Virus record (IMG/VR): IMGVR_UViG_3300045612_000066
Location: 1 to 30,465 of that record
DNA length: 30,465 bases
Strand: one strand, 5' to 3'
From: a virus
Shown here: in pieces, positions 1,133-28,683 of the stretch
How the letters are laid out: every line of letters starts with the position of its first letter
Numbering within the stretch: position 1 is the first letter of the stretch
Notes under the pieces: generated by a model
Seen by the model: the letters and a program-made list of their open reading frames with translations, nothing else
Database searches by the model: none
Told to the model about the DNA's origin: nothing
Position numbers and translations under genes: made by a program

Positions 1133-3628
1133 TTATTTCCTTCTTGGCGGGGGTTCAGCCGTTAAACGCTCAAAATCCGGGGCGCGTTCCGGTTCAATAT
1201 CGCCTGGCGCCCACCAGTAACGCTGGCCAGTTTCGCGTCTGTAACGCGCTTCGAGTTCCGCCATCCGCTGTTTAGCGTCCGGATCGCCCCAAATTTGTAA
1301 ACGATCCAGGATCAGGCGCTCCAGTCCCAGGCGCAAATACCATATCGACGATCCTGGGGTATAGCGTCCAGCGTACGAAATCAGCTCCCGCATGAAGTGC
1401 GTATCCTTGCCGGTTGCTAGTTCCTGGACGTTGCCAATGGTAAGGCGGCGCGTATCATCTAAGAATCCGACGACTGGACCGGCAATAGTTTGCTCTAGCC
1501 CGCCGCCAAATCGGTTGACATCGTTAAATAGAAAATCTCCTAGGATGCCCAGGCCCCCGCCCTGAAGCAATGCGGCACCCCAAAACTCCGGCGTCATCAC
1601 GGTTCTTGGATCGCGCCCCTTGGTAATCTCTTTGAGTTGCATAGCCAAGGCGCCGAATAAAGTAGTCGAGATAACAAGGTCCGCGAAGTACGCGCCCCTC
1701 TTATTGAAGTTTTCCGTATTCACGGCGCGCATGACGTGTGTATTGAGTAGCGTTACCGGGAAGTTCTTATACATGGAAAACGACCTGGCGATTTCACCGA
1801 CAAACGTACCAGGACGGGATTCTCCGACCAGCATCACCCGGCCACGGATTGACGCAGAAGGCACGGCAAACTCCGTCTCCGACTGGATCATCTCCAGGAA
1901 TCGCGTCGCTAGATCGTCAGCTCGCCCTGGTTGCAAGTCGGTCCGTAAGGCAATTTCTTCAGGACGCAAAAACGTTGCTCCTTCATGCTCATACAACCCG
2001 GACGCCCGCATCACCTCCCAATTACCTTCGCCCAGGCCATATCGGCTTAAACTGTCCTGGAGCGGCTTGTCCAAATCTGCAAATTTTTTGGCAGCGTTAT
2101 CGGCCAAATAACCCATAAACTCCATGCCAAATGCCCAACGTCCGGCCTGGGTCCATGGAGATAAGCCGGTAATCCGCATCACCGTATCTGAGATCCGGCG
2201 TGTAATTTCAGGGCCGGTCATATCCCCGACGAATCGTGCCTGGGCCGCCGCAACACTTGTCCAGTTTTCAGCGATCAATCCCAGGCGCGATGCAAGACGC
2301 CCTTTCTCTTCAATGTTGAGCGGGACTAGGTTATCGGCGATCCGTTTAATTACGTCCGCAGTAGGGATGCCGGAAGTTTTAGCGGCAATACGCTGGAAGT
2401 TAATATCGGTTAATGCGGAGACGGCGGCCGCGCCAAGTTGCGCCGACTGAAGTATTTGGCGCAAGCCGGCAAAGCCCCTGGCCACCGTGCCATCGACGGG
2501 TGATGACGTAGATCCGTTAAGAATCGCGTACATCGAATCAAACATGCCCAGCTCTTTATTGGCCTTTTCGACCATCTTGCTTTCCGGATTGTTTGCCTCT
2601 TTGATCTTGGCGTCTTGCATGACGGTTTGATGGATATACCGCACCGTCGCATTAGGGTTAGGCCCGAGTATTTCCATCATAGCAATATCTCTGGACATTC
2701 CTTCCAGGTGATTAACCATCGTAACGAATGGTTCCGGGTTACCGAATTTCTCCTGGTACTCTAGCCAAGCATCGGCATTCTTAAATGCCAGGAATCGATG
2801 ATCCTGGTGACGGGTGGCAAGAGACCGGCCACCACCAGCTCCGGATGGTTTAACTTTGTTCCAGCCTTCCGTCGCAATGGAATCAAATACCTGGGCGAGA
2901 GCCAGCTCTAGGCGCTCCGGCGTAAACTTTAAGCCAGTACGCTCATCAACCATCTTTTCCGGATCTAGGCGCTCACGGATAAAATTGGTCCACTCCTCCC
3001 GTCCAGCTTTGCGCACCAGCATCGAATCATGGATCTGAGGCATACCCCAATCACTTCTCTTCGAAATCGCACCGCCGGCCGCGTTAAAGCGCTGACGGGC
3101 ATATTCCGCGGCAGTTGACCAGGATTGTGCCAACTCTTTTGCGGCGACTGATCCGGTGTCCTCGCCAAATACTTCGCGCACTAAGTCCTTGGCCATCGCT
3201 TTATTACCCAAGCTACCGGTTACTCCGCGCCTTCTAAAAGCTCCCAAGACGTCATCCATCTTTGAATAAATTTGTCCGAGTACGGCTTTGCGACGTGCCT
3301 CGACGTTGGAATACTTAGCAAACTCGTCGCGATCAAGCAATGCCTGCGCGGCCTTTCCTAGACTTTCTCCGCCGGCATACTGGTTTATGTCAAAACTGAT
3401 CTTTTGCCAGTTACGGATTTGCAACAATTTCACGCGTTTCTTTTCAATCGCCTCTTTTTGCAATGCGTCAAAAGTATCTTTTGCGGCCTGAGTGCTTGCC
3501 TGGATGGGGTCCATCTTTTTGGCGTACTCCGCCTCTAGTTCATCAAATAAACCTCTAGCCTTGGCGGCCTGATCCGATGAGAGTTTTCCCTCATTCTCGC
3601 CGTTTGTAATACATTCTCTGAAGCTCAT
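1133..3628 (-). CDS. Internal virion / ejection protein (gp16-position), 831 aa
   Basis: This is a large protein between the other internal virion proteins and the tail fibre, the position of T7 gp16. It starts MSFRECITNGENEGKLS and continues with a charged helical region (LFDELEAEYAKK), a start typical of podovirus internal virion proteins that I recognise by pattern only. The C-terminal third has hydrophobic stretches (DLVISTTLFGALAMQL; a Gly-rich ALLQGGGLGILGDFLF), as expected for a protein that enters or crosses a membrane on ejection. I see no lysozyme or transglycosylase motif, unlike T7 gp16. An upstream in-frame GTG at 3637 is possible. I prefer ATG 3628 because it forms an ATGA overlap with the TGA of the preceding gene, the same coupling used elsewhere in this operon, and AGGG lies upstream. 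The function is inferred from size and position. Confidence 0.7.
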   Translation of the reverse strand: MSFRECITNGENEGKLSSDQAAKARGLFDELEAEYAKKMDPIQASTQAAKDTFDALQKEAIEKKRVKLLQIRNWQKISFDINQYAGGESLGKAAQALLDRDEFAKYSNVEARRKAVLGQIYSKMDDVLGAFRRRGVTGSLGNKAMAKDLVREVFGEDTGSVAAKELAQSWSTAAEYARQRFNAAGGAISKRSDWGMPQIHDSMLVRKAGREEWTNFIRERLDPEKMVDERTGLKFTPERLELALAQVFDSIATEGWNKVKPSGAGGGRSLATRHQDHRFLAFKNADAWLEYQEKFGNPEPFVTMVNHLEGMSRDIAMMEILGPNPNATVRYIHQTVMQDAKIKEANNPESKMVEKANKELGMFDSMYAILNGSTSSPVDGTVARGFAGLRQILQSAQLGAAAVSALTDINFQRIAAKTSGIPTADVIKRIADNLVPLNIEEKGRLASRLGLIAENWTSVAAAQARFVGDMTGPEITRRISDTVMRITGLSPWTQAGRWAFGMEFMGYLADNAAKKFADLDKPLQDSLSRYGLGEGNWEVMRASGLYEHEGATFLRPEEIALRTDLQPGRADDLATRFLEMIQSETEFAVPSASIRGRVMLVGESRPGTFVGEIARSFSMYKNFPVTLLNTHVMRAVNTENFNKRGAYFADLVISTTLFGALAMQLKEITKGRDPRTVMTPEFWGAALLQGGGLGILGDFLFNDVNRFGGGLEQTIAGPVVGFLDDTRRLTIGNVQELATGKDTHFMRELISYAGRYTPGSSIWYLRLGLERLILDRLQIWGDPDAKQRMAELEARYRRETGQRYWWAPGDIEPERAPDFERLTAEPPPRRK

Positions 3629-6600
3629 TTGACGCACCCTACCAAACGCTCTAACATTGATCTGTCCTGTTCGAAGTCGTCCAAAATTTGTCTTACAGTT
3701 TGCACCTCCGATATTCTCTCACCGGTTACTGGGTCAATTCGCTCGGCAATTGGTACTTCCAGGTTCATTAGATCCGGGTTGCGGTTGCCGCCTGTACCAA
3801 TCTGTGCTAGAGTTAAGTCAGGAGTGTCCTTTATGAAATCATCTAAAAAAGTAGAATTTCTCGACGTTGAAGGGATCCCGGTAACGCTCGGCTCGGTTTC
3901 GGGTTTTACTGGCTTTTGCGCCGCTTGGGACAAAGATTCACCAAGACCCTTCCCAGCGGATTCGGCATTGCGCAATGGCGCACCAATTGATAAAGCAGAG
4001 TTTGAACGATTGAGAACGGCTGCAAACGCCTCATCATAGGCAAGTACCATTTCCGCATTTATCTTATTTATTTGATCCTGTTCAGCTAAGGTCGGTTGAC
4101 GCTCCTCATCTAAAATACGGCGCAAGATGCCATCACGGGTTTTATACATATCGTGATACTTATCTTTGACCTTCATAAATTCAGGAATGCTAATCTGCAC
4201 TTCTGCAATATGACCTTCAATCTCGACATTCATCTTAATATCGCGATAGCCACCATCGAGCGCCTTGACCTTGGGATCGAGTAGATTTCTAAATCCACTA
4301 TCTAGGACGCGATACTGTGAGCGCAATTCTCTTAGTGCAACTCCGGCTTGCTGAAAGTTGTCAACGATAATCGCTGCGCGCAGTAAGTCCTTAATCATCG
4401 TTGCGTCGCCAGCATAGTCGAATATAATTTTCTCGACTGCTCGACTAGATCCTTTAAGACCTGCGGCTTTGTATTCACCATTGACCGTATTTGCGATCGT
4501 ACGATTTATTGCATCGAACTGTTCTTTACGCAATGCGGCGTCTTGGTATAGATTACGCAGAATCGTTTGCGCATCAGGTGTCAACGGCGCAAGATGATCC
4601 GGATTAAGGGACTTGGACACATACTCGTCAACGGTAATCGGTTTGCCGCCATTGGGTAAATTACCCAGGAGATCACCTTCCAGGATGTCACCCTGGTTCT
4701 TAGCGCCAGTGGATCCTGGACCTTCATCAAATAACTTTAGCTCGTCTGCGCCTGGTTCTGTGAATCGATTGCTTTGCGACGGAGTTGTGAAATCGCCGCG
4801 ATCTCCGCCATTTGGTAGCCTTTCATAACTCCCGTCCTCAATTGCTCGGCGGACGCTTTCGGTAAACTCGCGGACGTAAGTTTCAATTTTGGTTCCGCCA
4901 TTGTCTTTCCACGCCTTGGCGATTCGGGTGAGATTGTCTGAGATGGGTCCCCGGACGTTTGCGTTATTTTCAATGATAGCGATTGCTTTGCCATAAATAG
5001 ACTCTTTCTCTTCGTTGCTTAGTTTTGCCAGGGTATTGCCGGCCTGTTCAATATCGGTTGCATTCTTAACCAGGGTTTCAAATAGTTGTTTATCCTTGCG
5101 CAATTCTTTCATTGCGCGATCAAGAATCTTGGCCCGCTCCAGGAATAGGCTTTCGGCAATATCCTCATCACCGAATAGACCAGCTTGCTCGGTTTTAACA
5201 AATCCGGCCTCTCTAGCCTGGCGTACGATCTGCTCGGCCTGGACCGCGTTAGCGGGTTCCAGGCGACGCAAGAGTTGTAGGATGGCCAATTGCTGGGCCT
5301 CATCGGTGATATACCGGCCAACGATTGATCCGAAATGCGGTGGCACTACATCGTTGACCACGGCATTAAATGCTTTAGGCCCCAGTTGCGACAGTTCGTT
5401 TGCTTGCTTAACGAATTGAGACCTAGGTGGCAATGACTTAATCAGCTCAGGCGCATCTCTCAGAATCTTGGCGGCATCGATTAAAGTGCCAGTACCTTCT
5501 GCCAGGTTCTTACCAGCGGCCGTTGCCCTGGCATAAGCCGGATCAAATCCATCTACTTCGCGAATCTTAAATGCGTAAATTTGAATATCTTGAGTTGGAT
5601 CTGTTTCCTGCAAACGTTTTGCCAATCCTAATCGTTGATGGCCATCCGCAATAAACGTACGTCCATCGGCAAATTCATACACGATAGCGGTATTAGCTTT
5701 TACTGGATCCCACTTGGTTATATCCTTGAGCCGCTCAGTAACGCCCATTACATCGCCGCCAGCTTTAAACTGGAATAGTTCGGCATCAACTAGCAAATCT
5801 TTTGGCTTGTACGCAAAAATCTCGCCGTTAAGATTGTCATGGAAAAATATATCTTTTGGCGAAATGATTGCGCTTTCAGGCGGAGCATTAGTGATCTTCG
5901 TTGAATTACCATCGAGTGCGGCGTTATACGATTGATCGACGCGGGCGTTATGTTCCAGGTTACCGGCATCATCTTTTAAAACATTGCCCTGGTTAACGGT
6001 TGCGTCAATCTCGTCAAGCTCTTTAATTATCTTGACATCGGGATCAATCTCATACGGACGGCCTTCGCGAGCTGCTCTAAATTTATTGAGCGCCTCGATG
6101 CCGTCAATCAATTGACGCTTAGTAAACTGTACGGCTGGCCTTGCACCCATAACGCCGGCCGTAATAACTCCAGCACCGGCGGCGGCCGTTCCTACGTTAG
6201 CCAGGAATGTTCTGTAATCGTATGGCAAATCAAGTGTCTTATACCAGTCTGCCACCTCAATTTGCGTTACGGCTTCAGCTCCACCATTCAATACTGCCTG
6301 GCGCAATGATTCTCTTAGAATTGTCGTACCAGCTCCCCTTGTTACATATAGGTCACCAGCAGTAATCGCAATATTTGGTAAGTCCGTTAATACGGCCGTT
6401 GCGCCGCCAGCTACGTCACCAAACCACCCGCCTAGGGTTTGACGTGCCGCTACATCGGCATTCACGTCACCGGCTTTAATAGCGCTCTTTTTAGCTCTTT
6501 CAAATAATGCGTCGTTGTCCAGGTTAATCAGTTCCGGGAATGTATCAGGACGCTCTTTAATAAAATCAAAAATTTGCTTTGAATAGTTTGTGTAGGCGCG

Positions 6601-6861
6601 CTCACCAAATCCACGCTCGGCCGTTACTTGGTTAAAATAATTGCTAGGATTAAAAAACTTGGTACCAGTCTTGTCCTGGATCTCTTTAACAATCGGATCC
6701 CATTGTTCTTTGAGATTGATTGCGCGCGAATCAGTTCGATTCAGTTTTAAATTTGCCTGGTATGCGGCGTTGAAGTTTTCTAAGAAACCAGTATCTTCTC
6801 CGCCTTTAAGCGGAGAAAAAGGAGTTGCTGATAGATTGGGTTCGTCAAAAACAAAACTCAT
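3625..6861 (-). CDS. Large internal virion protein with ParB-like motif and RelA/SpoT-synthetase-like domain, 1078 aa
   Basis: This multi-domain protein sits in the internal-virion block, with ATGA overlaps to both neighbours. Residues 1-330 resemble a structural N-terminus, with a Gly/Ala-rich hydrophobic stretch near 225-245. Around residues 395-440 is a ParB/sulfiredoxin-like segment: FADGRTFIADGHQRLGLAKR, with the DGHQR core at 406-410. Residues about 640-760 are charged and low in complexity. Residues about 790-910 match the layout of the RelA/SpoT nucleotidyltransferase fold: LKGSSRAVEKI (K803, R807, K811), then IKDLLRAAIIVD (D825, R828), GYRDIK (G871, Y872), EVQI (E887, Q889) and YHDMYK (H903). 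In RelA-type synthetases the matching elements are the K..SI..K helix, D..GIR, GY..IH, VEIQIR and a His/Tyr helix. Mosaic proteins like this are known in phages as polyvalent proteins. Catalytic competence is unproven, and the domain calls rest on motifs only. Confidence 0.68.
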   Translation of the reverse strand: MSFVFDEPNLSATPFSPLKGGEDTGFLENFNAAYQANLKLNRTDSRAINLKEQWDPIVKEIQDKTGTKFFNPSNYFNQVTAERGFGERAYTNYSKQIFDFIKERPDTFPELINLDNDALFERAKKSAIKAGDVNADVAARQTLGGWFGDVAGGATAVLTDLPNIAITAGDLYVTRGAGTTILRESLRQAVLNGGAEAVTQIEVADWYKTLDLPYDYRTFLANVGTAAAGAGVITAGVMGARPAVQFTKRQLIDGIEALNKFRAAREGRPYEIDPDVKIIKELDEIDATVNQGNVLKDDAGNLEHNARVDQSYNAALDGNSTKITNAPPESAIISPKDIFFHDNLNGEIFAYKPKDLLVDAELFQFKAGGDVMGVTERLKDITKWDPVKANTAIVYEFADGRTFIADGHQRLGLAKRLQETDPTQDIQIYAFKIREVDGFDPAYARATAAGKNLAEGTGTLIDAAKILRDAPELIKSLPPRSQFVKQANELSQLGPKAFNAVVNDVVPPHFGSIVGRYITDEAQQLAILQLLRRLEPANAVQAEQIVRQAREAGFVKTEQAGLFGDEDIAESLFLERAKILDRAMKELRKDKQLFETLVKNATDIEQAGNTLAKLSNEEKESIYGKAIAIIENNANVRGPISDNLTRIAKAWKDNGGTKIETYVREFTESVRRAIEDGSYERLPNGGDRGDFTTPSQSNRFTEPGADELKLFDEGPGSTGAKNQGDILEGDLLGNLPNGGKPITVDEYVSKSLNPDHLAPLTPDAQTILRNLYQDAALRKEQFDAINRTIANTVNGEYKAAGLKGSSRAVEKIIFDYAGDATMIKDLLRAAIIVDNFQQAGVALRELRSQYRVLDSGFRNLLDPKVKALDGGYRDIKMNVEIEGHIAEVQISIPEFMKVKDKYHDMYKTRDGILRRILDEERQPTLAEQDQINKINAEMVLAYDEAFAAVLNRSNSALSIGAPLRNAESAGKGLGESLSQAAQKPVKPETEPSVTGIPSTSRNSTFLDDFIKDTPDLTLAQIGTGGNRNPDLMNLEVPIAERIDPVTGERISEVQTVRQILDDFEQDRSMLERLVGCVK

Positions 6862-9116
6862 TTAATTTTTTCTCTTTGCTTAACGCGATCTGCCAGTTCA
6901 CGAAAGTTAACCACTAAGGCTGACTTATCTTTAATAGTAAATGCCAATGGGCTAGTTTTGCCGCGATAATCTTCGTAATACAAAACGGCGCGATCTGTAT
7001 CGATAAATGCTGGATAACCTTTACGCAAGCGCTCGATCGTAAACTTCCTGCCCTGGTCATCTTCGGGTAAACCATTAGAGACTGCGGCAAAATCATCGTA
7101 CGTCGCACGATCAATAATGTCTTTAAAACTGTCTTGTGCGATATTATTCGGAATCGGGATACGTGTGCCGCGATATTCAATAATCCCACCGTATGCTTTA
7201 CCGTTTTTAGCAATGGTCATGCCTGACGCCTCTTGGAATGCTTGTTTGTACATATCCTCATCAAATGTTGACTTGCCGGCCACGATAGCGCGCTGGGTAT
7301 AAATGTTGTCAGCAGTTTCAATAATTGCGGAACGTGTCTTAGGAACAAACGCATAGGCACCTCCTAGTTGATCGGTAATTATATTTTTCTTAATTGCCGC
7401 ATCACCAGTACCTTGAAACGGTTTATTACCAGCCTGGCTTTGGCGCATACCATTAAGAGCATCATATACAGTCAATTTGCTTGCGCCGGACAAAACCAGG
7501 CCGCCAGCATGAGCAAACTCCGGTGCAAACTTTGATATCTCGTTCATAGCATTAAGGGAATTCTTTCCGAATCCCTGGTTTATTACACCTAGCAATGTAA
7601 TCTGTTGATCGGGAGTTGCAGTTTGTAAGAATGTCGTAAGAGCGGCCGCCTCATCTTGGGAGAAGTATTTTGGAGAAGAGTTCATGCTGGCCGCAAATGA
7701 TTTTGATTGAGTAACGCGCTCACCAATCTGCTTTATTAAATCAACGGGTGCCGCCGCAAAGTTTAGTGTTTTGACTTGTGCAAATCCGGTTTGATTCATG
7801 TAACCGACTGGATCCTTTTCCAGCATAGTCATTTTATGACTTAGGGTTTTTTGCGCTACGTCAGTCAGCATAGCCTGCTCAATAGTTGACCCACCCTGAA
7901 TTCTAGTTTGTGCTTCGCGCACATAATCGCCTAATTGAATAGGTGACATTTTATTAAAAGCAATTGATTGTTGACGTAACAAGCTTAAGTAATTGGCCCG
8001 GCGCATGACGTCGTCATTGATTGGCAAACCCAAATTTCTTGCGCGTCCCATCAATTCACTTATAACGGATTCGCTTGGCACCTGGCCAAGAGAAAAAATT
8101 TTCAATGTTTCATTAATATCGGATTTTAGTTCTGCGCGCAATGATTTAGCTTGTGCGCCTATAGAGCGTAGATCCGCTTCAATCTCATTAACCAAGGCGC
8201 CCATGCGGCTTACATCGATGCCGCGCGTAATCCGATTTTTTTTAGTTGGGGTGCCAGCTTCATCATAAAGGGCACCAATTGGACCAGCTCCGATATCAGC
8301 TTTAACACGTTTTAAAAATTCTGCTTTGTTGGGTGCCTTATCGTATTCTTTTCTAAAGCGCGCAATATGTGCTTGCTCTGTAATTTTTTGCATATAGCGC
8401 TCAACCTCAGGTGGAGGCAGACTACCGGCGATTGCCGTTTTTTTAATCTCTTGCAATTCCGCAAATAACATCTTTTCGCCATCTATCACTCCGCTACTCA
8501 TTATGCGGATGGCGTCCTCGCCACGCTGATCTAATGCCGCTAATGCAGTTGCTTTAATTTGCTGGGCTACACGGTCGTTATGTTTTTCTGATATTTCTAA
8601 GAATGCGACATTCTTCATCCGATCTAAATCGCTAGCTACGCGGCCACGCAATTTGGGATGAAGTAGGGTAGTTAAGGATTCGAGGCCGTCACGAACGTCG
8701 GATGCCTCCGATAAAAATTGAATTGGATCAGCATTCGGATTATTTTTAAACGCATTCAGTTTTTCAGTTAATAGTCTGCGTCCATCGTTTTGCAATTGCA
8801 ATGCGACCAGTTCGTTTGCCTGTTCGTAAGCGGCTTTGTCGTAAACGGTTGTGGGCGCTCCAGCTTCTTTTCTATAACCTAGTTCCTGCTGTGCTTGCTC
8901 CGGAGTTTGTATAGAAGCCCGACCCTTTTGCTCGGCTTGTTCAAAACCTATTTTTTGAGCAAATGAAATTACACGATCGAGACCTTCATTTGTCGATGCG
9001 GCAATATTTTTGCTCTCGCGCATAAGGGGACCATAATCAATGGTCGGGGATGCGGCCGCACGATAAGGATCTACCTGAATTCCTAGTGGTTGATATCGCG
9101 GAAGTCTTTCGGCCAT
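6858..9116 (-). CDS. Internal virion protein (gp15-position), 752 aa
   Basis: A long, mostly alpha-helical, charged protein between the gp14-position gene and the 1078-aa protein. It begins MAERLPRYQPLGIQVDPY, a proline-containing extended N-terminus like those of T7 gp15-type internal core proteins, followed by repeated helical stretches (for example AYEQANELVALQLQNDGRRL). No enzymatic motif, signal peptide or membrane segment stands out. The length (752 aa) is close to T7 gp15 (about 747 aa). ATG 9116 lies 2 nt after the TAA of the upstream gene, and its TGA overlaps the next ATG (ATGA), so translation is probably coupled through this block. The role as a core protein ejected into the cell during infection is inferred from order and size; sequence similarity to gp15 was not tested. 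Confidence 0.65.
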   Translation of the reverse strand: MAERLPRYQPLGIQVDPYRAAASPTIDYGPLMRESKNIAASTNEGLDRVISFAQKIGFEQAEQKGRASIQTPEQAQQELGYRKEAGAPTTVYDKAAYEQANELVALQLQNDGRRLLTEKLNAFKNNPNADPIQFLSEASDVRDGLESLTTLLHPKLRGRVASDLDRMKNVAFLEISEKHNDRVAQQIKATALAALDQRGEDAIRIMSSGVIDGEKMLFAELQEIKKTAIAGSLPPPEVERYMQKITEQAHIARFRKEYDKAPNKAEFLKRVKADIGAGPIGALYDEAGTPTKKNRITRGIDVSRMGALVNEIEADLRSIGAQAKSLRAELKSDINETLKIFSLGQVPSESVISELMGRARNLGLPINDDVMRRANYLSLLRQQSIAFNKMSPIQLGDYVREAQTRIQGGSTIEQAMLTDVAQKTLSHKMTMLEKDPVGYMNQTGFAQVKTLNFAAAPVDLIKQIGERVTQSKSFAASMNSSPKYFSQDEAAALTTFLQTATPDQQITLLGVINQGFGKNSLNAMNEISKFAPEFAHAGGLVLSGASKLTVYDALNGMRQSQAGNKPFQGTGDAAIKKNIITDQLGGAYAFVPKTRSAIIETADNIYTQRAIVAGKSTFDEDMYKQAFQEASGMTIAKNGKAYGGIIEYRGTRIPIPNNIAQDSFKDIIDRATYDDFAAVSNGLPEDDQGRKFTIERLRKGYPAFIDTDRAVLYYEDYRGKTSPLAFTIKDKSALVVNFRELADRVKQREKIK

Positions 9117-9118
9117 GA

Positions 9119-9652
9119 TTAGAATCCAAATAAAGAATACTTGCCGCCAGGTCCGCCAGCCGTAGCATACGCCGCTCCAGCCTTGCCGACGGTTCCAATA
9201 GCGTTATAAAAACCTGCTTGCGCGGCCGCACTTCCGGATGTGCGCAAAATGTTGGCATTTGCTTCGCCTTGGTATTTATAAACATTGGCCTGGAATGCCG
9301 CCGAAGAAGCGGCCAATTTTGCATTTTCTTGAGAAATGTCAAATTCGGTGTAGCCCTCACGCAATGCGTAGGTTTGCAACGATCCAGCCGATCCACCAAA
9401 TGGATCAATCGCGCCGGCGCCAGCTCTTGCGCGTACAGTAGAGATAGTTCTGTTTAAATTGGTAAGCGTTTTTAATCCTTCATTCCGCGCCCGAATAGCT
9501 TCAGTTCGGCCCTGCATTCTTGCTTGTTCAGCCTGAAACTGAGCTTGTTGTTGAGCTTGTTGGGCTTGTGCGTTATAAATTTGTTGTTGCGTAATTCCTT
9601 GTTGAATTTGACCAACGGCGGAAATAGCTGAAGCGACAAGGGCAAGTTCCAT
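9119..9652 (-). CDS. Internal virion protein B-like (gp14-position), 177 aa
   Basis: The small first member of the internal virion block, directly after tail tubular protein B, as T7 gp14 (196 aa) follows gp13 and the tubular genes. The N-terminus is mildly hydrophobic (MELALVASAISAVGQIQQG). It is followed by a strongly Gln/Ala-rich coiled coil (residues about 18-60, TQQQIYNAQAQQAQQQAQ...), then GAGAIDPFGGSAGSLQTYALREG and a Gly/Ala-rich C-terminus ending KYSLFGF. This Q-rich coil followed by a SGS.....A..G.......... region is typical of podovirus gp14-type proteins, which in T7 form the outer-membrane part of the DNA channel. SD AGGACA precedes ATG 9652. Family placement is by pattern. Confidence 0.72.
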   Translation of the reverse strand: MELALVASAISAVGQIQQGITQQQIYNAQAQQAQQQAQFQAEQARMQGRTEAIRARNEGLKTLTNLNRTISTVRARAGAGAIDPFGGSAGSLQTYALREGYTEFDISQENAKLAASSAAFQANVYKYQGEANANILRTSGSAAAQAGFYNAIGTVGKAGAAYATAGGPGGKYSLFGF

Positions 9653-19971: not shown

Positions 19972-20394
19972 ATGGTTTATTTTAAAAAAGTAAAATTTAA
20001 TGCAGGTAGCAAACCTTTGTTGCTGAGTTTGCAGAAAATTTGCTTGCCGTATGATAAGCCGTACGTTTCAGCCGATTCAGCATGGTGGGTGGGGTATGAC
20101 AATAAAAAACCCGTTGCGTTTTGCGTTATCTCACAGTCCACACGCTGGCAAGATACGGCATATCTTTCAAGATCCGGAGTGATCCCGGAGTATCGAGGAA
20201 ATGGATTACAAAAACGCATGATTACTATTCGAGAAATGTACGCCAAAAGAAAAAACTACACTTGGATCATTAGCGATACTACGTCTAACCCGCAAAGCTC
20301 GAACAGTTTGATTCGCCGAGGATATCAGTTGTTTGACCCAAGCGATCCATGGGCATACGCTCATAGTCTCTACTGGAGAAAGCGAATAAAGTAA
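19972..20394 (+). CDS. GNAT-family N-acetyltransferase, 140 aa
   Basis: A complete GNAT domain. Beta strands lead to motif A, RSGVIPEYRGNGLQKRMI (residues about 67-84), with the acetyl-CoA-binding R-G-N-G-L loop. Motif B follows, SDTTSNPQSSNSLIRRGYQL, in which Asn and a GY pair are typical. It would transfer an acetyl group from acetyl-CoA to an amine on a small molecule, tRNA or protein; the substrate cannot be read. It lies on the opposite strand to both neighbouring operons, with its own promoter, and its stop directly abuts the HNH start. This suggests a moron-like insertion or a packaging-linked pair. Confidence 0.82.
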   Translation: MVYFKKVKFNAGSKPLLLSLQKICLPYDKPYVSADSAWWVGYDNKKPVAFCVISQSTRWQDTAYLSRSGVIPEYRGNGLQKRMITIREMYAKRKNYTWIISDTTSNPQSSNSLIRRGYQLFDPSDPWAYAHSLYWRKRIK

Positions 20395-22557: not shown

Positions 22558-24456
22558 TCATAATTTAGGTTCATGCTTGTCCTTCCATACCCAACAAAAA
22601 TCATCCCACTTGCCCACAATCCCACGTTCCTGAAGCGATTTTGCGGCGCGCAAAAATGCCTTCTTCTTGCTGTCGTCCGATCCATCGCTGATCTGCTTTC
22701 TCATGGCAAAATCGCGCCAAAGTGATTCTGTAACGGTGTAATAGCCCTTTGGGATATAGTTCCCGATCTGTCTTTGCTCCCCGGCATTTGATAACGCATC
22801 ATGTAACGCATCCAAGATAAGGCGTTGTTGGCCCGATAGCTTTTTCCTGGCCACGATGTCCGCGGGTTGGTCTGATAGTGCCAGGACCAGGCTGGTCTCC
22901 ACTTCTAGGGACAAGGGTCCGGCGGCCAGCTCCACACTGATCGCCTTAAACTGCATCGGATCGAGCGGCTCGGCGTCCTTCTGCTTTTCCGTGGTCAGGA
23001 GTACGCGGTCCGTGTCCCTTTCGACGCGCACGGATACATCCACGGCACCGATGAGGGCCGTGGATCCCCTGGCTCCCCGGTTGCTATCCTTGCCTGAATG
23101 GTGAATCGGTAATACGGCACAGCCGATTTGCTCGCGCACACGGTCCATATTCTTAACGGCCTTTCCCATGTCCTGAGCGGAGTTCTCATCGCCTCCGATC
23201 ATGCAACGCGCTACGGTATCAAACACCACCATCGCCACTGGGATTTGAGGGTCCCTGGTTGCCTCGATGGTTTGCAATAGATCTTCAATTTCCATGTCGT
23301 CTAATAGGTTCACGGCCTTAGGGATCAGGTAGAACGGGGCGCTTTCTTCTTTTTCGTTGTGCTGGTGCCAGGCGCCGATACGCTTTCTAAATCCGCCAAC
23401 GCCTTCGCCCGCCACGTAAAAGACTTGTCCCCTGGCGACTTCGTGCCCATGCCATTGCGCGCCGTGTGCCACGGTAAGCGCAATATCCAGCGCCGTGAAC
23501 GTTTTTCCGCCGCCAGGTTCGCCGTAAATCATGGCCAGCGAGTGCTTGGGGATAAGCGAATTCACTAGCCAGGTGACCGGTGGCAATTGCGCAATCTCTT
23601 TAAGGGTCAGGATTCTTAGCTTGGGCGGATTGACTGGTGCGATCCAATCCTTTGCTAACGGGGCGCTCTTGGCCAGCTCAACGAGTTGCTCTTTCGTGCC
23701 GCCTTGGGCGATCCAATCCGATACGTCGCCCTTTTCTTTTAGGTCCGGAAGTTCGAGGATGCGGATCTCTGCGGCCGCGTTGCCGAGTTGCTCAATAATA
23801 ACCTTCGCATGGTTCTGCCCCGCCTCATCGTTGTCCGGCAAAACGATGATCTTGCGCCCGGCAAAATGCAAGTTTAATTCCTGGGTCCATTTCTTGGCCC
23901 CGCCGGAGTTGCAAGATGCCAAAAGTCCAAGTTCCTTGAGGGCCTCGACATCCTTCTCCCCTTCGACCAGGAAGATAGCTTTTCTCGGATGCTCTAGGAT
24001 GGCCGGGAGGTTGTACGGTAAAGGCGTAACGCCTTGAAGGTTCCATACGTGCTTGCCGTTCATCAATCGGCGTTGCCTGAAGTCCTTTGGCTCAAATCGG
24101 ATCACCTCGTATACGATCTCGCCGGCCGCGTTGACGTACGGATATACGGCCTTGACCTTCTTGTTTTGGATAGGTTTAAGTTCTTCGTGTTTGCTAACCC
24201 TGGGTGTGAGTTGAATGCCCAGGTTCTCGGCCATCCAAGGCTCGATCTTGGCGCCGCCAGTTTCTAGCTTGATAAGGTCCGCGACCCCTCCGCCTTCGTT
24301 GGATTCGTGGTCGTACCAGGTGCCTTTTTCAAGATCGATTGACTTGGACCCATGCGTCCCAAACCGGATCTCCTTGCCCGGCTTGGATAGTTTTGTATTT
24401 GGTTCGCCCCAAAAAAACTTGGCGACTTGTTCTATGTGTTGTACCAGTTCCGTCAT
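22558..24456 (-). CDS. TOPRIM primase / RepA-like helicase fusion, 632 aa
   Basis: The N-terminal region (LEKGTWYDHESNEGGGVADL) is typical of phage and D5-type primases. The TOPRIM domain has FLVEGEKDVEAL (Glu 165) and IIVLPDNDEAGQNHA (D208, D210), followed by KEKGDVSDWIAQGG. The C-terminal RecA-like ATPase of the RepA/DnaB-like type has Walker A GEPGGGKT (312-319), Walker B VVFDT (D413) and PIHHSGKD. The last 100 residues look like a winged helix. It would prime and unwind at the origin. The frame is open to a TTG at 24498, but that start lies in the terminator hairpin, so ATG 24456 is chosen. No SD is visible before it, only a U run. It is the largest replication gene in the window. Confidence 0.9.
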   Translation of the reverse strand: MTELVQHIEQVAKFFWGEPNTKLSKPGKEIRFGTHGSKSIDLEKGTWYDHESNEGGGVADLIKLETGGAKIEPWMAENLGIQLTPRVSKHEELKPIQNKKVKAVYPYVNAAGEIVYEVIRFEPKDFRQRRLMNGKHVWNLQGVTPLPYNLPAILEHPRKAIFLVEGEKDVEALKELGLLASCNSGGAKKWTQELNLHFAGRKIIVLPDNDEAGQNHAKVIIEQLGNAAAEIRILELPDLKEKGDVSDWIAQGGTKEQLVELAKSAPLAKDWIAPVNPPKLRILTLKEIAQLPPVTWLVNSLIPKHSLAMIYGEPGGGKTFTALDIALTVAHGAQWHGHEVARGQVFYVAGEGVGGFRKRIGAWHQHNEKEESAPFYLIPKAVNLLDDMEIEDLLQTIEATRDPQIPVAMVVFDTVARCMIGGDENSAQDMGKAVKNMDRVREQIGCAVLPIHHSGKDSNRGARGSTALIGAVDVSVRVERDTDRVLLTTEKQKDAEPLDPMQFKAISVELAAGPLSLEVETSLVLALSDQPADIVARKKLSGQQRLILDALHDALSNAGEQRQIGNYIPKGYYTVTESLWRDFAMRKQISDGSDDSKKKAFLRAAKSLQERGIVGKWDDFCWVWKDKHEPKL

Positions 24457-24461
24457 CGGAT

Positions 24462-24490
24462 AAAAAAGACCGCGGCCATAACCGCGGCCC
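24462..24490 (-). terminator. Rho-independent terminator upstream of the primase-helicase gene
   Basis: On the minus strand, CCGCGG (24487-24482), loop, CCGCGG (24475-24470), extended by wobble and G-C pairs to 8-9 bp, is followed by TTTTTT (24467-24462). It lies in the 48-nt gap between the ADDEF-tail gene and the primase start. It should attenuate transcription into the primase gene. Confidence 0.75.
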
Positions 24491-24504
24491 CTACTCAATT
24501 TTTA

Positions 24505-26302: not shown

Positions 26303-26986
26303 ATGAAAGTCATCGCGTATTACCGAGTGAGTACCAAGAAACAGGGCGATAGCGGTTTGGGTTTAGAAGCCCAAAAAAACACAATCGAGCGATTCCTAGC
26401 TGGTTCATCCTATGAGCTTGTCTCCGAGTATGTTGAGATTGAGAGCGGCCGCAAGACCGACAAGCGCAGACCACAATTGCGCGCCGCCCTGGAGCAATGC
26501 GAAATTCAAGGCGCGACCCTGATGATTGCCAAGCTAGACCGTTTGACCCGTAACGTCGGATTACTAACGACGCTCCTGGATCGCCAGGTTCCGATCATGG
26601 CGCTTGACATACCAAACCTACAAGATCCAGCGATGAGCCGATTCATACTCCAGCTCATGGCCAACGTCGCCGAATTGGAAAGAGCGCAGATCTCAGACCG
26701 TACTAAGAAGGCCCTAGCGGCGCGCAAGGCGAGGGGCATGGCATTGGGTTCACCCGCCCCAGCCAACGGCGCCAAGGCCGGCGGATTAGTTACGGCGGCC
26801 CAAGCAAAAGAGTTTGCTTGCCAGGCATACCCCGTGATCCAGGAATTGAAAGCGTTCGGATGCTCGACCCTTGCCAAGATCGCCGCGGGTTTATCAGCCA
26901 GGGGAGTTGCCACGGCCACCGGTAAAAAAGCCTGGTCCGTGAGTGCGGTGCGCAACGTAATTAACAGATACGAGGCCATAATATGA
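26303..26986 (+). CDS. Small serine recombinase (resolvase/invertase family), 227 aa
   Basis: An N-terminal catalytic domain: MKVIAYYRVSTKKQGDSGLG with nucleophile S10 and R8, the second arginine cluster AKLDRLTRN (R80, R83), and SRFILQLMANVAELERAQIS with the conserved E-R pair. A short linker leads to a C-terminal helix-turn-helix-like region (STLAKIAAGLSARGVATATG; WSVSAVRNVINRYE). It cuts and rejoins DNA through a phosphoserine intermediate. The length is that of a resolvase or invertase, not of a large phage integrase. SD AAGGGG lies before ATG 26303, and its TGA overlaps the next ATG. No crossover site is evident, so the substrate (dimer resolution, inversion or integration) cannot be read. 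Confidence 0.88.
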   Translation: MKVIAYYRVSTKKQGDSGLGLEAQKNTIERFLAGSSYELVSEYVEIESGRKTDKRRPQLRAALEQCEIQGATLMIAKLDRLTRNVGLLTTLLDRQVPIMALDIPNLQDPAMSRFILQLMANVAELERAQISDRTKKALAARKARGMALGSPAPANGAKAGGLVTAAQAKEFACQAYPVIQELKAFGCSTLAKIAAGLSARGVATATGKKAWSVSAVRNVINRYEAII

Positions 26987-27504
26987 ACATCGTCGCAAGA
27001 GCTACGCTATTTGCGTCCCTTAAACATAGTGGCAAAGTCCGTAAATTTTCCGGCCTGCCTTATATCAGCCATCCGGTGCAAGTTTTGCAGACTGTGCGTG
27101 AAGTTACAAGTGACAAAGAAATTTTAGCCGCCGCAGTTTTACACGACGTCATTGAGGATTGCGACGTAACTTATACCGATTTAGCCCAAGAGTTCGGCGA
27201 GCGAGTAGCCTCCCTGGTTTACGAGGTTACCGACGCGGCCGATGACAGCGACGGCGACCGCGCCACGAAAGCATTTTTAAATCGTGCCGCAATGTCGAAC
27301 GCCAGCGCTGAAGCGCAGACGATAAAGCTGGCCGACATCATCTCTAATCTTTCTTGGTTCGATATTGCCCTGAAATGTGATCCATCTTGGGCAAGAGTGT
27401 ATTTGGTCGAAAAAATCGACATGATTAATACTCTGACCAAAGGCGACGCGTCTTTAAAAAAGCGAGCGTTAACAGTTGCCGCTCGGCTAGCCATAAAAAC
27501 CTGA
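26983..27504 (+). CDS. HD-domain alarmone-hydrolase-like protein (Mesh1/SpoT type), 173 aa
   Basis: A compact HD protein with the order and spacing of (p)ppGpp hydrolases: H30 in LPYISHPVQVLQTV, then HDVIED (H54, D55, E58, D59) preceded by AAAVL, and D118 in AQTIKLADIISNL. RelA/SpoT/Mesh1 hydrolases use the same HPxxV, HDxxED and D-x-x-x-N elements with about the same spacing. EFGERVASLVYEVT also matches the helix after the HD motif of that family. The length is about that of Mesh1 (179 aa). It would remove pyrophosphate from (p)ppGpp and blunt the stringent response; nucleotide hydrolysis of another kind cannot be excluded. ATG 26983 overlaps the recombinase TGA (ATGA), so the pair are co-expressed. 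Confidence 0.8.
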   Translation: MNIVARATLFASLKHSGKVRKFSGLPYISHPVQVLQTVREVTSDKEILAAAVLHDVIEDCDVTYTDLAQEFGERVASLVYEVTDAADDSDGDRATKAFLNRAAMSNASAEAQTIKLADIISNLSWFDIALKCDPSWARVYLVEKIDMINTLTKGDASLKKRALTVAARLAIKT

Positions 27505-27539: not shown

Positions 27540-27713
27540 ATGAAAAAATTTTGTTTGTCTGTTTTGCAATCCTTAATGATGCTTGCGTTTTCCGTTTTTT
27601 TGGCATTCATGGTCACCGAATGGATGGCTGGTTGCGGCGAGTATTACTACGACGCAAAGGGCCGCCTAGTGCTGAACGAGTGTGTGTTTATTGACTTCCC
27701 GAAAGGAGAATAA
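27540..27713 (+). CDS. Small membrane-anchored or secreted protein, 57 aa
   Basis: MKKF start, then a hydrophobic stretch (LSVLQSLMMLAFSVFLAFMV), then WMAGCGEYYYDAKGR and a polar end (FIDFPKGE). The MAGC is lipobox-like, but it lies a few polar residues after the hydrophobic core, so lipidation is uncertain. A perfect SD (GGAGG) lies 5 nt before ATG 27540, which decides this start over the ATG at 27528 that contains the SD. It sits between the HD protein and the exonuclease, and its stop is 1 nt before the exonuclease start. Function unknown. Confidence 0.65.
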   Translation: MKKFCLSVLQSLMMLAFSVFLAFMVTEWMAGCGEYYYDAKGRLVLNECVFIDFPKGE

Positions 27714-27714
27714 A

Positions 27715-28683
27715 ATGGTTGGAAAAATTACAAATGATATTCTGCCGTCCGGGTCACGGATCCCAGGCATTATGGGGGTATCCCCTTTCCGTTCACCCAA
27801 TGACGAGCTGGCGGCCAGCATCGACGCGCTAGAAGGCAAGCCGCGCCCACCGTTTGAAGTTGAGGCCGCAGACTGGGGCAATACTTTGGAGCCAATCATC
27901 ATCACCGAGGCGGCCAAACGCCTGGGGATTACGATCAAAGAGTTCCAAGTTGACTATGCGCTTTCGTACTTGGAAGATGACGAGATCATTTTGCAATGCT
28001 CGCTCGATTCGATTTTGGAAGGAGACGGCCGCACGATTAAAACTGATCCAGACCTGCGCATTTATGTGATTGGTGCCAATCAAATCACATTGAACGGCCT
28101 TGGGTGTTGCGAATCAAAATTAACAAGTGCCATGCCTGAAGAAGAGCCGCCCGCATATCGCGGCCCGCTTCAGCTCCAGGCACAACTGCTATGCGCTGGC
28201 TTTACCTGGGGAGTGATCGCGACTTTGTACCGAGGGACCGAGTTGCGCTTATTCTTTTACCAGGCGAGCGGAAATATGCAGACCAAGATCATTGATGTTT
28301 GCAAAGAGTTCACGCGCCGCGTTAATAGTAAGTCCTGGTATCCGGCCGTTAATCCAGCCGATGCCGTGAAAGCATACCCGACCGTTGACGAATCTAAGCC
28401 AGCGATCGAGTTGGCCGGTGATGTAGGCGAGTACGCGCGCCGCTTGATCGAGATCAAGGCCCAGGCCAAGATCTTAGACGAAGAGATTGACCAACTCCAG
28501 TCAAAGATTATGGACACGATGGCCGATGCTGAAGAAGCGTATATTAAAAACGAGGACGGATCTGTTGCGGCGCGAATCAAGTGGGCCATGAGGTCGTATA
28601 AGGCCCAGCCTGAGAAAGTGACGCCAGCTAAACCGGCAAGGATAGAGCGTGCTAAAACTTTACAAATTTTAGGAGTGTCATGA
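27715..28683 (+). CDS. YqaJ-like viral recombinase / exonuclease, 322 aa
   Basis: A lambda-exonuclease-like PD-(D/E)XK fold. The first half has SGSRIPGIMGVSPFRSPNDE, then WGNTLEPIIITEAAKRLGI (conserved Glu), LQCSLDSILEGDGRT (Asp), CCESKLTSAMPEEE (E-S-K) and PLQLQAQLLCAGFTWGV (Q of the YqaJ motif). The C-terminal part has a coiled coil (residues about 250-285) and a basic end. It would resect double-stranded ends for recombination. No separate annealing protein (Redbeta/RecT/Erf type) is recognisable in the window. SD AAAGGAG lies before ATG 27715, which is preferred over an upstream start inside the preceding gene. Confidence 0.85.
   Translation: MVGKITNDILPSGSRIPGIMGVSPFRSPNDELAASIDALEGKPRPPFEVEAADWGNTLEPIIITEAAKRLGITIKEFQVDYALSYLEDDEIILQCSLDSILEGDGRTIKTDPDLRIYVIGANQITLNGLGCCESKLTSAMPEEEPPAYRGPLQLQAQLLCAGFTWGVIATLYRGTELRLFFYQASGNMQTKIIDVCKEFTRRVNSKSWYPAVNPADAVKAYPTVDESKPAIELAGDVGEYARRLIEIKAQAKILDEEIDQLQSKIMDTMADAEEAYIKNEDGSVAARIKWAMRSYKAQPEKVTPAKPARIERAKTLQILGVS

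Follow-up and report, generated by a model that had tools for sequence, protein, structure and literature searches.

What would a RelA/SpoT-type synthetase domain be doing in a protein that a phage appears to pack beside its genome? The question is raised by the gene at positions 3625-6861 of the viral record IMGVR_UViG_3300045612_000066 in IMG/VR, of which the whole stretch analysed (positions 1 to 30,465; 30,465 nucleotides) is referred to here as the window. An earlier note, made from the sequence alone, had proposed that this gene of the internal-virion block encodes an ejected protein with a (p)ppGpp-synthetase-like domain, acting before any phage gene is expressed and making an alarmone-like nucleotide, or else modifying RNA. 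The open reading frame is real, 1078 amino acids long, and lies on the minus strand, which the earlier note did not give. Our analysis indicates that its product, called below the slot protein after the exchangeable slot it contains, is probably an effector that the virion delivers, an alarmone synthetase with (p)ppApp as its likely product, carried by an ejection-block protein of an epsilon15/T7-like podovirus.

In regard to the domain itself, the profile matches, the predicted structure and the structural comparisons all agree on a (p)ppGpp-synthetase-like (SYNTH) fold. Residues 765-960, searched against the PDB as a single sequence with phmmer, had Tas1 (6ox6) as their sole match (E=4.8e-7). 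Three profile scans of IMG/VR yielded 49 viral loci with a SYNTH domain, and the family profile, built from 36 relatives, matched Tas1/Apk1 at 1.8e-27, followed by E. coli RelA (7.5e-7), RelSeq (2.4e-6) and the exported synthetase SaSAS (2.6e-5), which makes Tas1/Apk1 the nearest sequence relative, well ahead of the next RelA/SpoT homologue (RSH). The AlphaFold2 model of the domain has a core with a predicted local distance difference test score (pLDDT) of 90-98, and its VIA-align Z scores were 16.6 with the small alarmone synthetase (SAS) SAS1/RelQ (5dec), 13.8 with SaSAS, 13.7 with Tas1 (25% identity) and 12.7 with CapRel, while the FaRel2 structures reached 7.0-7.7. The structural match on which the earlier note had staked its claim was also obtained with Foldseek, which ranked Tas1 first (3.9e-9), and the matches of both programs to SAS, Rel, Tas1 and CapRel structures place the domain in the Pol-beta-like SYNTH fold. 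The suggested comparison with RelA_SpoT (PF04607) held only in part: the window sequence itself did not reach this Pfam family, whereas 22 of the 36 family members did, the best of them at 3e-9. Judged from these sequence and model comparisons, the match is far beyond chance.

Close relatives of the domain were absent from the bacterial genome contigs scanned, a result that applies to close relatives only. Apparent matches of the domain (E 0.2-0.3) to the N4-like virion RNA polymerases that some Vibrio phages encode were rejected, as the alignment contained neither the donor-site nor the GY motifs. In a Photobacterium sp. DA100 plasmid (L018 4714-6558; L numbers denote our loci), two adjoining unannotated open frames each hold a SYNTH domain, as if duplicated.

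All the residues on which the earlier note relied, K803, R807, K811, D825, R828, G871-Y872, E887-V-Q-I890 and H903, were found at those numbers, and the catalytic ones are invariant or nearly so among 67 distinct relatives. K803 and K811 are each present in 64/64 and thus never vary wherever aligned, R807 is retained in 60/64, D825 and E887 in 67/67, R828 and G871 in 66/67, Y872 in 63/67, Q889 in 61/67 and H903 in 57/67; K899 likewise never varies. The equivalence of R828 with Apk1 R330 and of E887 with Apk1 E382 follows from the Tas1 alignment and from the Apk1 numbering in PMC12691689, with an offset of 21 derived in the present analysis. Furthermore, the ratio of nonsynonymous to synonymous substitution (dN/dS) is ~0.07-0.13 in the domain and ~0.27-0.36 in the adjacent linker, with synonymous sites near saturation in some pairs, a difference that marks the domain as being under purifying selection. 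The conserved active site and the low dN/dS together argue that it is a maintained and very probably active pyrophosphokinase.

A domain of the Tas1/Apk type would move pyrophosphate from ATP onto the 3′-OH of a purine nucleotide, and the product would most likely be (p)ppApp, perhaps (p)ppGpp. Of the two kinds of product that the earlier note had considered, an alarmone is favoured over a pyrophosphorylated RNA because the nearest characterised sequence relatives are Tas1/Apk1 and exported synthetases, and because the phage genome contains an alarmone hydrolase gene. The alternative that survives best, although we consider it improbable, accepts the same delivery and sees in the domain an RNA pyrophosphokinase that modifies tRNA 3′-CCA ends and halts host translation in the manner of CapRel and FaRel2. 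The clear structural match to CapRel is in line with this, as is a core common to Tox-SYNTH enzymes of both kinds; the family profile, on the other hand, matches Tas1 and SaSAS and not CapRel or FaRel2, the FaRel2 structures score far lower, and the alarmone hydrolase of the phage also speaks against it. We know of no sequence rule for adenosine acceptor specificity. Swaps of the syn motif failed to convert acceptor specificity (PMC12226406).

As for the carrier, placement in the internal-virion block is borne out by gene order, by the neighbours and by synteny with epsilon15 and phiV10. The minus-strand order is tail tube A, tail tube B, gp14-like, gp15-like, slot gene and the phrog_684 gene, and orthologues of the slot protein stand in identical gene order on at least 18 viral contigs. 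The position between gp15 and gp17 is held by gp16 in epsilon15 and by p19 in phiV10, so the order gp14-gp15-X-gp17 that characterises genes of the epsilon15 gp16 type is present at the window locus; the gp16 of epsilon15 lacks a SYNTH domain. In the diverged podoviruses L059-L062, the SYNTH domain is found inside proteins that show homology to epsilon15 gp16 in their N-terminal part (hhalign 99.6%, 2.6e-24). The profiles of the gp15-like and phrog_684 proteins gave no convincing match in the PDB, and the relation to T7 gp15/gp16 is therefore one of gene order and not of sequence. Internal proteins are ejected by both epsilon15 and T7, and T7 gp16-C gets into the cytoplasm (PMC8954989), while a 2025 epsilon15 paper lists gp15 and gp17/16 of that phage among the components of the injection device (PMC12391199). 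P1 DdrB, which bears a ParB domain of the DdrB-like type, is a head protein (PMC5512222). By analogy with these systems, the gene order, the neighbours, the gp16 homologues and the DdrB-like ParB domain suggest that the slot protein is packaged and ejected.

Within the slot protein, residues 1-330 evolve fast, and no relative of known function was detected for them. Residues 345-680 resemble Noc (7nfu, 4.5e-5) and ParB (6sdk, 8.6e-4) in a Foldseek search with the full-length model, the protein matches phrog_10691 at 3e-62, and a DGHQR motif is invariant in the ParB/Noc-fold domain of the family. A large multi-domain protein that joins a ParB fold with a SYNTH domain or a Zeta toxin and is encoded in a structural block corresponds to what has been termed a polyvalent protein. 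The full-length AlphaFold2 model is poor (pLDDT 66, predicted template modelling score 0.31), and the arrangement of the domains was left uninterpreted. Matches of the full protein to Lipase_chap, Arm_3 and DUF1015 in Pfam and to a lipase chaperone in NCBIfam were discarded as weak, below curated cut-offs and outside the SYNTH domain, and PADLOC gave no match for the protein. The C-terminal tail possibly serves as a packaging or assembly anchor. The C-termini of the window protein, of L059-L062 and of epsilon15 gp16 all hold a short acidic/helical stretch and a near-terminal Cys, and such tails, common to otherwise different slot proteins, could represent a shared packaging signal.

The occupant of the slot in front of this tail is exchangeable. 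A scan with the ParB part of the protein yielded 80 loci; with the neighbouring genes unchanged, the slot of this protein holds either a SYNTH domain or, at Pfam values of 1e-16 to 1e-18, a Zeta toxin, or it is empty. A Zeta toxin replaces the SYNTH domain in L104/L122 (IMGVR_UViG_3300037502_002060), L126, L129, L139, L148, L149, L164, L166 and L176, and the slot is empty in L173, L177, L182, L183 and Dunaliella viridis virus SI2. Mapped onto a 55-phage tree built from the downstream virion protein, the type of occupant requires 10 changes, of which at least 8, for Zeta, are imposed by branches with good support. The pair L166 (Zeta) and L172 (SYNTH) is mostly 90-100% identical up to residue ~735, except for an N-terminal insert, drops to 10-37% across the cassette, and returns to 87-100% over the last ~35 residues; L120 and L122 show the same sharp drop over the equivalent stretch and the same recovery in the last ~35 residues. 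Such a drop between conserved flanks is what marks a polymorphic toxin slot, and from these alignments the slot is read as a polymorphic cassette with conserved flanks on both sides, which suggests interchangeable enzyme weapons injected with the phage DNA. Taken further, and here we are tentative, the ejectosome might form a polymorphic-toxin system whose slot is repeatedly reloaded with an alarmone synthetase, a Zeta kinase or nothing, the toxins acting before phage gene expression and the antidote coming from the early region.

Several related loci depart from this layout. In L156, L169 and L175, whose slots were scored as RSH, the domain is diverged, with the SYNTH profile still matching and the motifs altered (HIRDSYRFK, VEWYLP), and it may represent a further pyrophosphokinase-like lineage. 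The ~1245-amino-acid protein of L056-L058 holds ~170 extra residues (~735-905) that separate the ParB part from the SYNTH domain. By eye, a 1554-amino-acid frame of L063 (6153-10814) combines an ART-like stretch with a SYNTH domain and with an extended, virion-like C-terminal part, and a 1510-amino-acid frame of L065 (5967-10496) combines portal-like, SYNTH and metalloprotease-like stretches.

The window also encodes a small alarmone hydrolase, on the other strand from the slot gene. It matches Lmo0812 (2.7e-15), SpoT (3.1e-15), Mesh1 (~1e-14 to 7e-13) and the (p)ppApp hydrolase 7smg (3.4e-7), and it is intact; the RK, HP, HD-x2-ED and D-x3-N motifs of the HD_4 fold are present in alignments with SpoT, Mesh1 and small alarmone hydrolases (SAH). 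The gene overlaps the end of a resolvase gene (26303-26986). It was found in 5/5 records of at least 27 kb from the clade of the window (the window and four others), and was absent from 36/36 Zeta-slot, empty-slot or other related records, many of which are fragments. Among records of at least 25 kb, it accompanies 7/19 RSH slots and 0/12 Zeta, empty or other slots (Fisher p 0.026), in a test on non-independent data, since five of the seven positives belong to one clade, that of the window, and one of the seven lies below the Pfam cut-off; the association with RSH slots is suggestive only. By analogy with the MuF-Apk2 toxins, which are naturally paired with the hydrolase Aph1 that counters them (PMC12226406), the enzyme is a candidate antidote of the slot synthetase. 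It could instead be directed at host (p)ppGpp.

Put together, a virion-delivered alarmone synthetase would work as follows. The slot protein would be packed with the gp14-, gp15- and gp17-like proteins and delivered through the tail into a new host, where, as the earlier note supposed, it would act before phage gene expression and make an alarmone-like product. A pulse at the start of infection would drain ATP and arrest the nucleotide, RNA and translation metabolism of the host, or would be aimed at competing phages or defence, and the phage hydrolase would remove the nucleotide after expression of the phage genes has begun, or shield the producing cell during late synthesis. Some observations weigh against this. 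The full slot-protein family gave no significant hhalign match to epsilon15 gp16, its N-terminal homology to that protein being undetected, and the ejection role of the window clade therefore rests on gene order. The position of Apk1 Asn370 is occupied by Lys876 in the window protein, whose acceptor specificity may accordingly differ from that of Apk1. Finally, most of the diverged podoviruses with the domain have no HD_4 hydrolase in their available sequence, many of these records being fragments.

The location of the slot gene within the late structural block would also suit a domain that acts late in the producing cell, either to shut off the host or to exclude superinfecting phages, or a toxin that lysis sets free to attack neighbours; the hydrolase would then shield the producer, and the role of the nearest analogue, the MuF-Apk2 toxins, is itself unsettled (PMC11699363). 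The recurrence in many phages of a fusion to a ParB/DdrB-type domain, with a conserved C-terminal tail and placed in the ejection block, nevertheless argues for carriage in the virion, and from the comparisons available we hold action outside entry to be unlikely, ranking it after tRNA pyrophosphorylation. Last comes an enzymatically dead domain serving as structural filler or as a nucleotide-binding part of the ejectosome, which low-copy internal proteins could tolerate as a scaffold and which the existence of empty slots would allow, and which is very improbable given the catalytic residues retained across all 67 relatives and an alternative occupant that is an unrelated kinase toxin fold, as expected of an effector rather than a scaffold.

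Features of the slot protein, its neighbours and the hydrolase in the window.
Feature	Position	Strand	Evidence
Polyvalent ejection-block protein with SYNTH domain (slot protein), 1078 aa, ATG start	3625..6861	-	open reading frame
N-terminal region, residues 1-330	5872..6861	-	all-helical in full-length AlphaFold2 model (low to moderate confidence), Gly/Ala-rich
ParB/Noc-fold domain and helical part, residues 345-680 (DdrB-like ParB type)	4822..5829	-	Foldseek, phrog_10691
Exchangeable effector cassette, residues ~742-1050, limits approximate	3712..4638	-	identity drop in L166/L172 and L120/L122
RelA/SpoT-type SYNTH (pyrophosphokinase) domain, residues 765-960	3982..4569	-	profile, AlphaFold2, structure alignment
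Donor-site motif K803-x3-R807-x3-K811	4429..4455	-	conservation among relatives
D825-L-L-R828, aligned with catalytic Asp and Apk1 R330	4378..4389	-	Tas1 alignment
G871-Y872 of acceptor (G-) loop	4246..4251	-	conservation among relatives
E887-V-Q889-I, equivalent of Apk1 E382 and following Gln	4192..4203	-	Tas1 alignment
Conserved C-terminal tail TVRQILDDFEQDRSMLERLVGCVK	3628..3711	-	retained whatever cassette occupies the slot; near-terminal Cys invariant
gp15-like internal protein, upstream	6858..9116	-	phrog_992
gp14-like internal virion protein	9119..9652	-	T7_gp14 3.4e-4, phrog_418 3.3e-5
Downstream virion structural protein, phiV10 p20 homologue, epsilon15 gp17 position	1133..3637	-	phrog_684 5.9e-189
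Small alarmone hydrolase (Mesh1/SAH-type HD domain)	26983..27504	+	Pfam HD_4 1.5e-16, structure-sequence matches

Elsewhere in the window, a Toprim/AAA primase-helicase (22558-24498, minus strand), a GNAT acetyltransferase adjoining the terminase small subunit (19972-20394, plus strand) and a YqaJ-like recombinase (27682-28683, plus strand) were recognised.

Related systems have been described in other settings. Tas1/Apk1, the (p)ppApp synthetase of the Pseudomonas aeruginosa type VI secretion system (T6SS), is the closest solved sequence relative and has the same active-site residues. It likewise reaches another bacterium, but it rides the T6SS, whereas the window carrier is a podovirus ejection-block protein with predicted delivery; Tas1 is accompanied by the adjacent immunity protein Tis1, and none was seen adjoining the slot gene in the window. 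The Apk2 MuF toxins, shown to make (p)ppApp, resemble the slot protein in the fusion of a phage structural protein to a synthetase of this kind, in their exchangeable toxin domains and in the hydrolase Aph1 (PMC12226406). They are borne by a MuF head protein encoded beside the portal, in contrast to the ejection-block ParB protein of the window, in which no MuF match was found with Pfam or PHROGs. In Apk2 loci, iapK and aph1 lie directly downstream, while the window hydrolase is encoded 20 kb from the slot gene and on the opposite strand, and the window cassette, unlike Apk2, has conserved phage sequence on both flanks. In Bordetella phage vB_BbrM_PHB04 (L014 11077-13342), a gene beside the portal carries SYNTH at its C-terminus, and an annotated (p)ppGpp synthetase/hydrolase one gene beyond it recalls MuF-Apk2/Aph1.

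RelA/SpoT domains in large multi-domain phage proteins, with injection predicted, were already reported among the polyvalent proteins by Iyer et al. in 2017 (PMC5512222). The available passages of that survey include Helicobacter prophages in which RelA/SpoT occurs together with DdrB-like ParB, (pro)phages of Spirochaetes and epsilonproteobacteria that acquired the domain, and fusions to MuF, and they do not describe an epsilon15/T7-like ejection slot, a Zeta-toxin swap or a hydrolase. A literature search that mostly excluded subscription papers found none that links alarmone synthetases to internal virion proteins, and none that links Zeta toxin to ejection proteins or to polyvalent proteins. 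RelA/SpoT domains in polyvalent phage proteins predicted to be injected, and MuF-Apk2, are prior knowledge. New are the slot in a podovirus ejection-block protein, the swapping of its occupant for Zeta toxins, the presence of the domain within epsilon15 gp16 homologues of diverged podoviruses, and a hydrolase gene encoded by the same phage.

The survey of exported alarmone synthetases lists, in its available part, Sec, the type III, VI and VII secretion systems, MuF and contractile systems as routes (PMC12691689). If the proposed reading is true, podovirus ejectosomes join the routes that carry alarmone synthetases into other cells. RSH, Zeta and empty slots in near-identical phages, such as L166 and L172, would then offer a natural comparison set for the benefit of injected toxins, and the long-standing idea that phages inject effectors along with their genomes would become directly testable.

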